A DNA stretch of 59,295 nucleotides from Acidobacteriota bacterium. GTDB lineage: Bacteria; Acidobacteriota; Terriglobia; Terriglobales; Acidobacteriaceae. Shown here in pieces: positions 6,843-17,992 of this stretch; position 1 is the first letter of the stretch; every line of letters starts with the position of its first letter. The notes under the pieces are model-generated. The model did not search any database, was not told where the DNA came from, and worked only from the letters and a program-made list of their open reading frames with translations. The stretch spans positions 1 to 59,295 of the forward strand of contig QIAP01000047.1 of assembly GCA_003225075.1 (NCBI GenBank). Direction: 5' to 3'. Both the position numbers and the translations under genes were made by a program.

Positions 6843-8408
6843 CTACTCCGGATCCGTGGGATCGTTAAATAGCACGCCCAGCTTGATGCTCCCATGACCA
6901 AATTGGGGGAAATTAGGAGCACTTGGATTACCCGGGTCAAGCGTAGACGCTGTGTCGTCCGGTGGGAAAAGCACCAGCGAGTTCAGGAAGGAGAGCAGCG
7001 CGTTCACGTCGCCCGGACCCAGGGCGGCAAATGCATTGCGAGCGGCCTGAGCCTCGCCACCGTGACGCAGGATAACGTCATTCAGAGTCATGCTGCGTCC
7101 GTCGTGCCCATAAGGTCCGGTACTGCCGACACCCCACAGGGCTCGGGTCATGAACATCGTCTGAAGCGTGCCGTCCCAATTGCGTTCGTGGAAGTTTGCC
7201 CCTAGATCATGGCGTTTGAAATCCGTGAAAATGTCTTTGACCACAAATGGATTTCCCAGGGGCAGCTTCAAAGGTGGGTTTCCGCTGCCGTCGTCGTGCG
7301 TGTAGAAGAGCGCGGTGGCTGTAGCGAACAGGGTGTTGAAAATGCCGTTCACCGGGTCATAGACAGTCTCAACGTCAGCTACCCGGCGGTCATGATTGAT
7401 CGTGAGGTCGGGGACATGGCAGGAGGCGCAACCAATCTTGTTGAATACTCGGCGCCCGTGGTCAGTGGAGCTGTTCTGCACGTCATGCCCCGATTTAAAG
7501 TAGTTGAGGAGGTAGAACTCCAGGTGATCCACAATGGCGGGATCCACCTCATTCCCGTTCTGCGGATCGGGAGCCGGCGGCGGACTGATCTTATCCTTTG
7601 AGCCGTCCAACACCATTCCTGACGGAGTCACAACCCGCCCGCCCGCGCTGGCGGCAAGCAGATCTGGATCGGCAGAAGCTTCCAGTCCCATTTCATTGTG
7701 AAGCGCACCGGCAATAAACTCGCGAATGGAAATCGTACTGCCTTCCGCAAAAAAGGGTTTCACTCTCAAATCAACATCAACCCCAATCACTTGAGAGGTA
7801 TCCGCGGTGCCGTCGGGATTTCCGGTAACGGTGCCGTAATGGATTCCTTTGCTCAGCAGTTTCATCGTCACCGAATGATGATTCTGCTGCGCCTTGGTGA
7901 TGGCCAGCGCCTTGGTGTTCCGCAGGTCGGTGGTGATCTCGTCGGCAAGCATTTCTTTTAATCCAAGTCCGAAGAGATGGCCGGCGTCGCGGCTGTCGGG
8001 ACGAGTCACTACGTTGCCGCCCGCCCCCGCGGACCCCCGCGGGCGTCCATGGCAAAGCGCGCAGCTATCGGACAGTCCCGCGCCGATGGCAAGGTCAGTA
8101 TTGATGTTTCCGCTGCCGTCCCCTTCGTTTGCCCCTTGGCCCTGCGCGCGGGTAAATTTTCGCTGGAAGAGCTGACGACCGCGCCGGATCGAGCGAAACG
8201 GGTCGCGGTTAATAATGTAAATGGAAGAGTTCGGTGTCATCACGCCTCCGCGTCCCGTACCGATTTCATCCAGTAGCGACTTGTTGATGCCCGCATTGGC
8301 AGTGTTAGGTGCCTGTGTGTTGTCGATCATCTGAGCTGCGGATACGGACGCGAAGAATAACAATGCGGCTGTTACAGCAATGGTTCGCACTTGTTTCAGC
8401 ATAGTCAT
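6843..8408 (-). CDS. Exported di-haem oxidoreductase (cytochrome c peroxidase-like, DUF1111)
   Basis: Periplasmic c-type cytochrome of the putative di-haem oxidoreductase (DHOR) family, distantly related to MauG and di-haem peroxidases. The product from ATG 8408 has 521 residues, a signal peptide at 1-25 (ending SVSAAQ) and two haem-attachment motifs, CALCH at 116-120 and CASCH at 327-331. The C-terminal TRALWGVGSTGPYGHDGR and LNDVILRHGGEA are typical of the family. I chose 8408 because GGAGG lies seven bases upstream; the frame extends to 8435 without such support. Substrate and electron partner are unknown. It is divergent from the winged-helix/TPR gene across a 327-base gap, which holds only that gene's operator-like repeats. 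Confidence 0.85.
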   Translation of the reverse strand: MTMLKQVRTIAVTAALLFFASVSAAQMIDNTQAPNTANAGINKSLLDEIGTGRGGVMTPNSSIYIINRDPFRSIRRGRQLFQRKFTRAQGQGANEGDGSGNINTDLAIGAGLSDSCALCHGRPRGSAGAGGNVVTRPDSRDAGHLFGLGLKEMLADEITTDLRNTKALAITKAQQNHHSVTMKLLSKGIHYGTVTGNPDGTADTSQVIGVDVDLRVKPFFAEGSTISIREFIAGALHNEMGLEASADPDLLAASAGGRVVTPSGMVLDGSKDKISPPPAPDPQNGNEVDPAIVDHLEFYLLNYFKSGHDVQNSSTDHGRRVFNKIGCASCHVPDLTINHDRRVADVETVYDPVNGIFNTLFATATALFYTHDDGSGNPPLKLPLGNPFVVKDIFTDFKRHDLGANFHERNWDGTLQTMFMTRALWGVGSTGPYGHDGRSMTLNDVILRHGGEAQAARNAFAALGPGDVNALLSFLNSLVLFPPDDTASTLDPGNPSAPNFPQFGHGSIKLGVLFNDPTDPE

Positions 8409-8699
8409 CAGAACCTCCGAAAAGCAGCCCGCCATGGGGGGGTGGGCGATCTACAGTGTGAAAAGAATTGTGGTGTGCCTTTATCTCGGTTGCCAATTTA
8501 CAAGGCTGCCGCGCCAGGGCGGTGTCGCGGCCTTCCACGACAAACAGTCTAGGCGGTGAAGCTTCATTCTTCCGTGCGGTCGGGGAGCTTTTCTGCCGCT
8601 AGGCTTCGTGCTACCATTCGTTCAATTTCACTGAGGCACCCGCCCACGTGGGCAGCGCATAATATTCGCCCCGGCGGACTTTGAAGTCTTCAACCAAGG

Positions 8700-8727
8700 C
8701 TCAAAAACACCTCAAAAGGTTCTCAAA
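8700..8727 (+). promoter_or_regulatory. Three CTCAAA direct repeats at 11-bp period (candidate operator)
   Basis: CTCAAA occurs at 8700-8705, 8711-8716 and 8722-8727, exactly 11 bases apart, ending 8 bases before the ATG of a gene whose N-terminus is a PhoB/OmpR-type winged helix. Such domains are known to bind head-to-tail repeats with about one helical turn of spacing. Autoregulation is therefore a natural reading but is inferred. Confidence 0.6.
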
Positions 8728-8735
8728 TCTGTTTT

Positions 8736-10664
8736 ATGAGCACAGAACTCAAGCAGTCCTACGAGTTCGGTCCCTTCCAACTCGACCCGAAGAATCGCAT
8801 CTTGCTGCGAGATCGCCAGTCCGTTCCGCTCACCCCCAAGGTCTTTGATACGCTGCTGTTGCTCGTAGAACGCAGCGGGCAATTGGTGTTGAAAGACGAG
8901 CTTATGCAGGCGATCTGGCCCGACAGCTTCGTGGAAGAGTCAAACCTGACGCAGACGGTCTTCATGGTGCGTAAGGCGTTGGGCGAGACCGGAGGTGATC
9001 AGCGTTACATTATGACCGTCCCGGGACATGGCTATCGTTTTGTGGCCGCGGTGAAACCGCTTAGAGAAAATGAACAGCCGGAGGCGCTGGCTGCGGCGGA
9101 TCAGCAAGCCGAGGGTGTGCTCGAAGTGGAAAGAACGGCCATCCGGTGGACTTGGATCATTTTGGGCATGGCTATTCTGCTCGTTGCAATTGGACTCTAC
9201 ATAGCGCGAATTCGGAGCCGTGCCGCACTCTTGAAGTTGACCGAGAAAGACACGATTGTTCTGGCAGACTTTGTAAACACAACCGGCGACGCGGTCTTTG
9301 ACGACGCGCTGAAGCAGGCGCTTTCGGTGGTGCTTACCCAATCGCCATTTCTCAATGTCGCGTCGGACGTACAGGTCAGCGAGATGTTCCGACGGATGGG
9401 CCGCACGCCCAATGATCAGCTAACCCGCGAGGTTGCGCGGGAAGTCTGCTTGCGTCTGGGAGGCAAGGCTATCCTGATCGGCTCGATTTCCAGCCTAGGC
9501 AGTCATTACGTGGTCGGGCTACAAGCGCTTGGCTGTGCCAGCGGCGACCTGCTGGCCACAGGTCAAGCCGAGGCCGCAAACAAAGAGAGTGTGCTCAGAG
9601 CCTTGGATGGCGTGGCTTCTCAGGTGCGCGGCAAGGTAGGAGAATCGTTGTCGTCCTTGGAGAAATACGACTTTCCAGTGGATACCACCACGAAATCGTT
9701 AGAAGCGTTGAAAGCCTTCAGCATGGGCCAAAGAGCCCTCCGGGAGAACGGAGAGTTCTACGCGATTCCTTTTTTCCGGCAGGCCATTCAGCTCGACCCT
9801 GATTTTGCGCTTGCCTACGCCACCCTGGGTCGCGCCTATGAGGATGTTGGGGAAGATAGTGAAGCGGTGGAAGATTTCACCACGGCCTATAACCTCCGCA
9901 ACAGGTTGAGCGAGCGAGAGAGATACTACATCACGACCTTGTACAGCGAAACCGTAACTGGCGACATGGAACGGGCAAAGGAGACCGGCGAGCTTTGGAC
10001 ACAAGTCTACCCGAGAGACGGGGTCGCGCGGGAAAAGCTAGGAACTGTGTACGGAGAACTGGGAGAGATCGAAAAGGCGAATATGCAACTCCAGGAAGCA
10101 TTGCGGCTGGATCCGGATTCCACCATTAATGTTTTCAACTCGGTAATGACGGCCGCTGCTCTCAATCGCCTAGACGAGGCACAAGCAATCCTGAAAACGG
10201 CTCAAGCGCGCGGATTGGATGGCCCAGTCATCCATGAAACTGCCTATCCGCTCGCGTTTCTCCGCGGCGACCGTGCAGAAATGCAACGGCAAGTGGCCTG
10301 GGCAGCCGATAAGGGGGGCAGGGATTACGTACTATTCTCGCAACACTCAGACACTGAAGCCTATTACGGACGCCTGCGCAAAGCGCGGGAATTCTCCAGA
10401 CGTGCGGTGGAATTCGCAACTCGCAACGAAAAGAAAGAAGCGGCTGCGTTCTGCGAGGTCGTTGCCGCCTTGCGCGAAATGGAAACCGGCAACGCGTCTC
10501 TGGCGAGGCAAGGTGTGCGCGCCGCTTTATCCTTGGCGCCCACCAGAGACGTCAAGGTTCTTGCCGCACTGCTACTCGCGAAAAGCGGTGATGCCGCGAG
10601 TGCGAAAGCGATAACCAGGGAACTAGAGAACAAGAATCCCTTCAATACACTCATAAAATGGTGA
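8736..10664 (+). CDS. Winged-helix (CadC/PhoB-type) membrane regulator with TPRs, C-terminus lost by deletion
   Basis: Likely one-component transcription regulator. Residues ~8-105 form an OmpR/PhoB-type winged helix (FGPFQLDP, LTPKVFDTLLLLVERSG, ESNLTQTVFMVRKALGE, VPGHGYRFV). Residues ~137-158 are a membrane helix, and the rest is a presumed periplasmic part with TPR-like helical repeats. The design matches CadC-like regulators that are numerous in Acidobacteriota. The frame ends at 10664 after NTLIKW, but the characteristic C-terminal end of such proteins (FPTYVRGQAHL ... LWKDADPDIPILKQAEAEYARL) follows in the next frame up to 10968. About 30-35 residues that normally join the two parts are absent, so an out-of-frame deletion of roughly 100 bases is likely. 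Three CTCAAA repeats precede the start. Confidence 0.8.
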   Translation: MSTELKQSYEFGPFQLDPKNRILLRDRQSVPLTPKVFDTLLLLVERSGQLVLKDELMQAIWPDSFVEESNLTQTVFMVRKALGETGGDQRYIMTVPGHGYRFVAAVKPLRENEQPEALAAADQQAEGVLEVERTAIRWTWIILGMAILLVAIGLYIARIRSRAALLKLTEKDTIVLADFVNTTGDAVFDDALKQALSVVLTQSPFLNVASDVQVSEMFRRMGRTPNDQLTREVAREVCLRLGGKAILIGSISSLGSHYVVGLQALGCASGDLLATGQAEAANKESVLRALDGVASQVRGKVGESLSSLEKYDFPVDTTTKSLEALKAFSMGQRALRENGEFYAIPFFRQAIQLDPDFALAYATLGRAYEDVGEDSEAVEDFTTAYNLRNRLSERERYYITTLYSETVTGDMERAKETGELWTQVYPRDGVAREKLGTVYGELGEIEKANMQLQEALRLDPDSTINVFNSVMTAAALNRLDEAQAILKTAQARGLDGPVIHETAYPLAFLRGDRAEMQRQVAWAADKGGRDYVLFSQHSDTEAYYGRLRKAREFSRRAVEFATRNEKKEAAAFCEVVAALREMETGNASLARQGVRAALSLAPTRDVKVLAALLLAKSGDAASAKAITRELENKNPFNTLIKW

Positions 10665-10968
10665 GACTTCTAATGTATCGAACGTATGGAACATGTTCCC
10701 CACCTACGTCCGTGGCCAGGCTCACCTCTCGGCACACAATGGCAGCGCGGCGGCCACAGAATTCAAGAGACTTCTCGACCACCGGGGCGTCGTGCAAAAC
10801 AGCATTCTCGGCGCGTTATCCCTTTTACAGTTGGCCCGAGCCGAAGTCATGATGGGTGATCTCAGCGGCGCCCGCAAGCAGTACAGCGATTTTCTTTCTT
10901 TGTGGAAAGACGCTGACCCCGACATTCCAATCCTCAAACAAGCCGAAGCAGAATACGCAAGACTGTAG
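10662..10968 (+). pseudogene. Detached C-terminal piece of the winged-helix/TPR protein
   Basis: Read in the frame of 10693, this DNA encodes GETSNVSNVWNMFPTYVRG and then the conserved end of the same protein family, terminating in EAEYARL. It has no credible start of its own and directly abuts the upstream frame. It was almost certainly part of that gene before an internal deletion changed the frame. Initiation at the ATG at 10693 (91 residues) is formally possible. Confidence 0.7.
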
Positions 10969-16303: not shown

Positions 16304-17992
16304 ATGAAGGCCGTTCTGAAATGGTGGGTAGTTGTGGGTTTGGTGACAACCCTGGTGGCGCAGACTGCGCCCACCAAAGCGAGGTCACGGAGAACGACCA
16401 GTTCGGCCAAGCCGGCGATTACAGCTGCCGACGTTCAGGCGCTGCGCGATGCACTGGCCGCCCAGCAGCAGCAGATTGAACAACTGAGGCAGCAGTTGCA
16501 ACAGAGCAGTCAGGCATGGCAGCAATCACAGCAGCAGGCCCAGCAGCAGCTTCAGCAGGCCCAAGCTGCCGCCACGGAAGCCCAACAAAAAGCAGCCGCC
16601 GTGGAAGTGGTCAGTACTCAGGATAAAGATACTGTCACCAAGCGGAATAACGACTTGGCGGACGTGAAGACAACTCTTACCAACACCGCGGTCAATACCC
16701 AGGAGGAGCAAAAGCGGATGTCTGCTTTGGAGGGTCTGGTCGGGCGGTTCCGGTTTGGCGGCGATGTCCGCGTGCGCGGCGAAGATTTCTTCCAAAACCA
16801 GCCCGGTTTCTTTGATCGTAATCGTGCCCGTATCCGGGTGAGGTTCGGAATCGATGGGAAACTTAATGAAGATTTTGTAGGTGGCATCTACCTGGCGACG
16901 GGCTCGTTGGGTGACCCGACGACCACCAACGAGACGCTGACGAACTTCTTCGATCGCAAGACGATCGCTCTGGACCGCGGCTTCATCACTTACAATCCGG
17001 TGGCCCACAAATGGGTCTCAGTGACAGGTGGCAAGTTTGCTTATACATGGAACCGCACCTCGGTTACATTCGATCCCGACTTGAACCCCGAAGGGTTCAG
17101 CGAAAAGTTCTCTTTCGATCTCAAGCACGTACCTGTGGTGAAGAACGTCACATTCCAGGGCATACAAATGTTGTTTAGCGAAGCGACCAGGGGCGCTGAT
17201 TCGTTTGCAGTAGGCGGTCAGGTTAGCGGCAAATTGGAACTGGGCCGCTGGAGCGCTACGCCGTCTTATACGATCTTGAACTGGCGGAACGTGGACGCCA
17301 TCCTAAACGCGTCCGCGTTTGCCGTCCAGGCAACCATCACCGGCAGCAGCAACAGCACGACCCCTGTTCCGTCGATTCCTGTACCCGGGGAGGGCCCGGG
17401 CTGTGCATCTGGCTCCGGACTTGCGAAGTTCCCGCCATGCGCGTTCGCACCGAATGGATTTTCGAACGGCACATTTGTAAATGCCAGCGGTAAGCCTCAT
17501 TTCCTGTCCCCCTTCCTTTATTCCGACTTCATCCTCAACAACCAGATCAAGACCGGATCAGCTCGTTTGCCAGTCAACCTCATAATCGAGTATGAAGACA
17601 ATCTTGCGGCAAAGGAACATCCGCTGGACTCCAGCGGTGCGTTGGCAACTAACCTGGGTAAGCAATCGCACGCCTACCTGGCTGACATCAACGTCGGCCA
17701 GACCAAGAACAAGAACGACCTCCAGCTTGGCTACGCGTATCTGCGACAGGAGCAGGACTCAGTACTCGGGGCATTCGACGAAAGCGATCAACGCGCGCCG
17801 ACCAACGTTCTGCAACACCGCATCTATGCCTTGTGGAAGCTGCGACCCAACACTGTCGCTGCATTTACCTGGTGGCACGGTCGAACCCTCAACACGAATC
17901 TGCAAAACGCAGTCCTAGCCCCGGGACTCAAGCCGGGCCAGCTCGAGCCCTGGCTCAACCGCTTGCAATTTGATCTGATTTACTCGTTCTAA
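16304..17992 (+). CDS. Outer-membrane porin with N-terminal coiled coil (putative phosphate porin)
   Basis: 562-residue exported protein. A signal peptide (about 1-20) is followed by a long Gln-rich coiled coil at ~45-145 (repeated QQQ and QLQQ units), then a beta-barrel-like part from ~150 (FRFGGDVRVRGEDFF) to the C-terminal aromatic residue (LIYSF), a usual sign of outer-membrane barrels. The layout resembles putative porins with an SLH/coiled-coil periplasmic part. Its place between pstS and pstC, 60 bases after pstS, suggests phosphate passage through the outer membrane, as with OprO/OprP, but anion selectivity cannot be read here. A possible stem (18002-18034) follows the stop. Confidence 0.8.
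   Translation: MKAVLKWWVVVGLVTTLVAQTAPTKARSRRTTSSAKPAITAADVQALRDALAAQQQQIEQLRQQLQQSSQAWQQSQQQAQQQLQQAQAAATEAQQKAAAVEVVSTQDKDTVTKRNNDLADVKTTLTNTAVNTQEEQKRMSALEGLVGRFRFGGDVRVRGEDFFQNQPGFFDRNRARIRVRFGIDGKLNEDFVGGIYLATGSLGDPTTTNETLTNFFDRKTIALDRGFITYNPVAHKWVSVTGGKFAYTWNRTSVTFDPDLNPEGFSEKFSFDLKHVPVVKNVTFQGIQMLFSEATRGADSFAVGGQVSGKLELGRWSATPSYTILNWRNVDAILNASAFAVQATITGSSNSTTPVPSIPVPGEGPGCASGSGLAKFPPCAFAPNGFSNGTFVNASGKPHFLSPFLYSDFILNNQIKTGSARLPVNLIIEYEDNLAAKEHPLDSSGALATNLGKQSHAYLADINVGQTKNKNDLQLGYAYLRQEQDSVLGAFDESDQRAPTNVLQHRIYALWKLRPNTVAAFTWWHGRTLNTNLQNAVLAPGLKPGQLEPWLNRLQFDLIYSF

Follow-up and report, generated by a model that had tools for sequence, protein, structure and literature searches.

Two questions are raised by the regulator gene that starts at 8736 of this window (the whole stretch of 59,295 nucleotides analysed here, from an Acidobacteriota bacterium): why a hexamer should be repeated three times at exact spacing directly before a gene for a DNA-binding protein, and which protein would read it. 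The copies of CTCAAA lie at 8700-8705, 8711-8716 and 8722-8727 on the plus strand in exact 11-bp register, with eight bases between the last copy and the ATG, which confirms the coordinates and the perfect period of the original prediction. CTCAAA is the sole 6-mer found in triplicate at 11-bp spacing on the plus strand of the window; for spacings of 7-30 the other 6-mer triples occur solely at spacing 12, at 16519/16529 (16519-16560, plus strand). The triple is not a chance occurrence: in 5000 dinucleotide shuffles of the 300 bp between the genes a 6-mer triple at 11 bp never arose, and 4 of 5000 shuffles reached the lag-11 score found for the 75 bp upstream of the ATG (p 0.001). A loosened pair with two mismatches is ordinary: 5.2 would be expected in the window and 7 were counted.

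When up to two mismatches are allowed, TTCAAC at 8689 can be counted as a fourth, imperfect unit. It falls within a GTCTTC element at 8686, and the array therefore reads GTCTTCAACCA / AGGCTCAAAAA / CACCTCAAAAG / GTTCTCAAATC in 11-bp register. Successive CTC trinucleotides are followed, at the same spacing, by A-runs of 5, 4 and 3. No -35 accompanies the candidate -10-like box, a sigma-70 scan gave no promoter on the plus strand at the array region, and inspection by eye of the window upstream of the ATG gave no clear ribosome-binding site. The intergenic region is held in common with a divergent neighbour (6843-8435, minus strand) encoding a di-haem oxidoreductase-like protein (DHOR); this gene could be a second target of the regulator.

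Features of the array and of the regulator gene in the window
Feature	Position	Strand	Basis or remark
-10-like hexamer TAATAT	8660..8665	+	26-21 bp upstream of the GTC element
Unit 0, GTCTTCAACCA, GTC(C/T)T(T/C) element	8686..8696	+	shares the 11-bp register of the CTCAAA copies
Three 11-bp units holding CTCAAA, putative operator array	8697..8729	+	repeat register
ORF of 642 aa: winged helix, membrane helix, TPRs	8736..10664	+	stops early compared with homologues
Winged-helix DNA-binding domain Trans_reg_C, PF00486, residues 28-102	8817..9041	+	Pfam
Membrane helix (approximate), WTWIILGMAILLVAIGLYIA, residues ~137-160	9144..9215	+	hydrophobic stretch read by eye from the translation
Leftover TPR C-terminus, other frame, ~40 codons lost before it	10660..10968	+	tblastn of homologues

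The domain order read in the original prediction, a winged helix joined to a membrane helix and TPRs, is borne out by Pfam matches to Trans_reg_C and TPR families, the only families matched, and by eye for the helix. The helix containing EESNLTQTVFMVRKALG is, by comparison with OmpR-family folds, what we take to be the recognition helix. A receiver domain with a phospho-acceptor is absent from the window protein by Pfam, which sets it apart from two-component regulators. The closest solved structure to the winged helix is that of CadC (5ju7, E 2.3e-11), followed by the response regulator 1p2f (E 3.7e-10) and, further down, ToxR, KdpE and PhoB (1gxp); the score against the CadC equivalog, NCBIfam PRK10153, is 64.4 bits, below the curated cut-off of 400 bits. 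The full-length homologues that were read are longer than the window protein. With five homologues, tblastn switches from frame 1 to frame 2 near 10661 with 36-46 homologue residues missing, so that the gene is possibly truncated or the assembly in error there, and L297, the nearest named relative (an Acidobacteria gp1 MAG), reads through continuously at this point. The window gene thus appears damaged, with its last TPR part out of frame. The TPR half is common to proteins of ~1000 aa that start with a PknB-like Ser/Thr kinase (L053, L055, L057, L058 and L061; five of five, by eye), and one TPR module would seem to serve two kinds of output, winged-helix and kinase-type.

CTCAAA had been proposed as a recognition motif for this class of regulator, to be found as CTCAAA-N5-CTCAAA upstream of other winged-helix/TPR genes. 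The proposal found no support: the exact pair occurs at one place in the 4.79-Mb genome of the bacterium, the window array, with no further place upstream of other such genes, and other homologues carry other units (CTGGAAA, TTCCAAA, CTGAAA, CTCAGA). A search for the triple with up to three mismatches gave 8 places, of which two overlap at the window array, and its reversed control gave 7; CTCAAA was rejected as a genome-wide motif. Across the family the pair is present in 37 of 150 genomes, reversed controls (not summed) looking about equally frequent, and two of the 30 fetched loci that carry it adjoin a winged-helix (wHTH) gene, namely the window and a locus in G084. As a rough baseline, for 28 of the 29 non-window loci the sequence fetched, mostly 1.5 kb to either side, contains no wHTH gene. 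In two genomes of one genus (L048 and L049, from G086 and G016) the sequence CTCAAAACATTCTCAAA was seen, and the surrounding DNA that was fetched holds no wHTH gene. The unit of another group, as TTCCAAA-N4-TTCCAAA, occurs at nine places in 150 genomes, five of them upstream of wHTH genes (four directly, one at ~150 bp), and each of these five is the only such place in its genome. The pattern was drawn from four of the five promoters, so that they are recovered by construction and the informative part is the scarcity elsewhere.

What the homologues have in common is the form of the element. Among 98 wHTH promoters collected, 95 of them usable, a layout found in many is a GTCCTT-like element followed by two to four units at 10-11 bp, often with a -10-like box ~25 bp further up; the letters of the units vary between groups of regulators. 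Self-similarity at lag 11 in the region -65 to 0 reached z 9.0 in 80 non-redundant wHTH promoters excluding the window (lag 22, z 4.2), and in controls from 81 promoters including the window it was z 2.6 at -135 to -70, z -1.2 at -265 to -200 and z -3.0 in the first 65 coding bases. Taken singly, 37 of 95 wHTH promoters were significant at p<0.05, and of 29 TetR control promoters taken within the family none was (30 were collected; L189 was dropped as its start was not placed); the binomial probability of 1.3e-23 for the former treats related promoters as independent, and the remaining 58 gave no significant lag-11 signal. Helix type did not separate promoters with signal from those without (33 of 80 VEExNL-type against 4 of 15 others at p<0.05).

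The GTC element lies 22-75 bp upstream of the start in 45 promoters. When these are aligned on GTC, 28 have A at -25 and 30 have T at -21, and TA at -21 is found in 17 of 45 compared with a mean of 1.6 per offset. The conserved letters, apart from the anchoring GTC itself, include the T and C of TTTCT units and GTCCTT, and A/T-rich positions recur across the family. Distances from GTC to ATG are most often 48, 37 and 59 bp (8, 5 and 5 of 45), that is, one unit apart, the other 27 being spread. A second layout was seen in L091, L113, L115, L116, L228, L235, L250 and L021, with an array of the GTCCTTACAAA..TTCTGAAAATTTCTGATAATTTCTCGC type ~118-171 bp upstream of the start (~120-230 bp upstream of the ATG for L091, L115, L116 and others), a GAAACGAGCGCAG-like block before most of these arrays, and in several a second -10-like box of the TGCTA type downstream; as the array is upstream of this second box, activation there is possible. 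In its general form the idea that a PhoB/OmpR-type winged helix has an operator of direct repeats at 11 bp before its own gene is well supported, such arrays being found before many homologues; as a claim about CTCAAA itself it is not supported.

The predictive value of this layout was assessed with a sequence-only model, R1, made from 38 of the 45 GTC-bearing promoters, the window among them. Seven were left out by eye as having no visible array or as near copies (L083, L018, L149, L169, L085, L143 and L159); four of these (L149, L159, L169 and L085) do reach p<0.05 at lag 11, and L083 has an array further upstream. The window itself, despite having been trained on, is a weak match (8661-8722, 18.3 bits, E 0.0063). 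In 300 genomes of the family R1 matched 76 places in 56 genomes. For 50 of these places the locus was fetched: 16 had been trained on, 33 had not, and L218 was a near copy. The remaining 26 places were not fetched (15 trained, 11 not). At 23 of the 33 untrained matches examined, wHTH sequence lies downstream on the same strand, in L257 and L258 as a fragment only; the other ten comprise two that resemble decayed copies (L245, L246) and eight without a wHTH gene (L223, L226, L229, L240, L242, L248, L259, L260). By coordinates, nine of the 11 unfetched untrained places lie 19-235 bp upstream of a wHTH match, the misfits being G029:C41 (614 bp away) and G069:C50, where the match is downstream of the wHTH gene. 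Several untrained matches, in the family and beyond it, come from a single genus or are closely related to trained promoters, so that they are not independent trials.

In L226 (G077:C5) the array lies ~250 bp upstream of a kinase-like gene and in L260 (G049:C5) it is in a region with a permease-like ORF, both genes being named by reading the sequence; both loci have a wHTH gene less than 2 kb off on the same strand. L245 and L246 (G299:C101) are two arrays ~1.2 kb apart, each followed by the apparent start of a decayed wHTH gene.

Beyond the family, R1 gave matches in 31 of 200 genomes of the class, and a wHTH gene is downstream at 22 of the 26 loci examined from other families (exceptions L288, L292, L293 and L296), counting places with a fetched locus and omitting L283 and L289 as same-family. 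A set of 73 other loci (254 kb), made up of 30 TetR loci, 22 with relatives of the TPR half, 11 with short Trans_reg_C proteins, six other wHTH loci and four named relatives, yielded two matches, both upstream of wHTH genes in MAGs labelled Eremiobacterota. These MAGs (L298 and L299, labelled Candidatus Eremiobacterota) carry a wHTH/TPR relative and the same kind of array. The Chloracidobacterium relative L300 has a visible array that R1 missed. In the bacterium's own genome R1 matched at three places (C216, C230 and C88), each upstream of wHTH sequence; C216 and C88 were trained on, and the gene at C230 is frame-broken. R1 gave no match at six other wHTH loci of this genome (L014, L015, L017, L018, L020, L022) or at 11 Trans_reg_C loci (L003-L013, ORFs of 174-270 aa), which presumably encode response regulators.

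Whether the array goes with one part of the protein or the other was indicated by L297, which shares 405 of 477 residues (85%) with the window protein (8736-10661) in the TPR half and 33 of 106 (31%) in the winged helix. The L297 promoter has no array (lag-11 p 0.92), and in this one case the array would seem to go with the winged helix and not with the TPR half. The similarity of units was compared with that of proteins in 43 non-redundant promoters; arrays scoring below 10 of 25 were not used, and L257, L157, L150, L164, L169, L256, L253 and L251 were left out beforehand for doubtful arrays or broken genes. Over all pairs unit similarity tracks protein similarity (Mantel r 0.35, p 0.0005). 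Similarity of the recognition helix adds nothing significant beyond that of the whole protein (partial r 0.113, p 0.087), and among pairs below 55% identity unit similarity tracks neither the helix (r 0.056) nor the rest (r 0.026), so that the Mantel correlation rests on close pairs. A residue-to-base code read by eye, with Q-x-x-F helices going with CTC and Q-x-x-S helices with CTG, was rejected, as L170 and L171 break the pattern and the partial Mantel result falls short of significance.

These data bear on who reads the arrays. One other global regulator, for example a response regulator, might have its sites before all these wHTH genes, and the common frame (GTCCTT and TTTCT at 11 bp), the recognition of many arrays by one model and the presence of some arrays upstream of other genes would all suit it. 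Set against this, units differ among paralogues within one genome: unit similarity is 0.47 for same-genome pairs (n=8, including one recent duplicate pair at 0.86), 0.58 for pairs of close proteins from different genomes (n=47) and 0.43 for distant pairs (n=848). Units within a genome are less alike than those of close proteins (p 0.029), similarity tracking the protein more closely than it does the genome. This is evidence against a single global regulator, as are the position of most untrained R1 matches upstream of wHTH genes and the absence of the array in L297, the one case seen in which the wHTH differs though the TPR half is the same. We consider a global regulator improbable.

Two readings that need no DNA-binding protein of this kind are less probable still. 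Phased A-tracts bend DNA, and the A-runs after each CTC together with the recurrent A/T-rich positions could mark a structural repeat lacking a specific binder; yet conservation extends beyond the A-runs to the T and C of TTTCT and to GTCCTT, and TetR promoters of the same family have no 11-bp signal, which makes bending a very unlikely account. An equally slim chance attaches to the array acting in the RNA leader, as a structure or as the site of an RNA-binding protein. Its place downstream of the presumed start site and ahead of the ATG, and the lack by eye of a clear ribosome-binding site, would fit such a role, but RNAalifold found no pairs in 38 aligned leaders, inverted repeats are absent, and no Rfam family was above cut-off, the single match at E<=0.5 having 16 bits against a required 49.5 and lying on the opposite strand. 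A period of 11 bp is moreover one turn of the DNA helix and has no obvious meaning in RNA.

The reading we favour, at a probability of roughly 0.75, is that the array is an autoregulatory operator bound head-to-tail by the gene's own winged helix. The 11-bp register, the placement after a -10-like box and ahead of the start codon, the recurrence in family and class and the rarity in the other loci searched are all evident in the sequences. The array is of a type widespread before related regulators, through which each would most likely bind and control its own gene. On the window array the N-terminal winged helix of the gene's own product would bind at GTCTTC and the three CTCAAA, one copy per 11-bp unit and on one face of the DNA. 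Three or four monomers could thus be placed just downstream of the presumed transcription start (~+15 to +60), a location that makes repression of the gene's own transcription likelier than activation, by our estimate roughly 60:40. Signals reaching the membrane or TPR part may alter DNA binding. The L297 exchange suggests that the DNA-binding part and its operator travel together, the TPR half being a module open to exchange, with kinase-type proteins as well.

As the unit letters differ between regulator groups, each group probably reads its own unit. A bolder and more doubtful extension is that Acidobacteriota hold many parallel, insulated loops of self-control, with private units in a modular 11-bp operator (GTCCTT plus units), placed in the leader of each regulator's gene, and few or no other targets. 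If this were true, nature would have supplied many matched proteins and operators from which to work out how the OmpR fold recognises bases. A literature search over titles and the starts of abstracts, covering few subscription journals, found no such arrays and no DNA site for these Acidobacteriota regulators. With the array, a specific binding site is predicted for many of them together. Such arrays would also allow each paralogue to be matched to its site, and they lend themselves to testing how a single winged-helix fold has come to recognise units that differ.

Several known systems resemble this one in part. Like the one-component regulators CadC and ToxR, the window protein has an N-terminal OmpR-type winged helix, with a candidate single membrane helix after it (a clear hydrophobic stretch, by eye). 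ToxR reportedly recognises a direct repeat element, to go by the title of one study. Unlike in CadC and ToxR, the C-terminal part here is made of TPRs that are common to kinase-type proteins. The CadC target has been proposed to be quasi-palindromic and AT-rich, the available portion of that paper mentioning no direct repeat (PMC5430869). A survey that counts transmembrane regulators names the Acidobacteriae as one of the groups richer in them per genome, and its available portion makes no mention of autoregulation or binding sites (PMC10269533). AfsR/SARP proteins also combine a winged helix with TPRs in one protein, and an '11-bp direct repeat' is named in the accessible part of that source; AfsR has a nucleotide-binding oligomerization domain (PMC10936776), whereas the window protein has only Trans_reg_C and TPRs by Pfam, plus a putative membrane helix.

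For the DNA there is a parallel with the tandem sites of OmpR/PhoB regulators, such as the pho box and the sites of PhoP. According to the accessible part of PMC4832192, structures of OmpR-family domains show head-to-tail dimers on direct repeats, with a 7-bp motif and a 4-bp spacer, and PhoP binding can be extended to trimers and tetramers. Head-to-tail repeats of ~11 bp linked to a Trans_reg_C protein are likewise found here, in the window and in the family, and as in the PhoP case (accessible part of PMC4832192) more than two units are possible. The window regulator differs from OmpR/PhoB response regulators in having no receiver domain and in being TPR-fused and probably membrane-anchored. 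Its array differs from their sites in its location, downstream of the -10-like box and just ahead of the regulator's own start codon.
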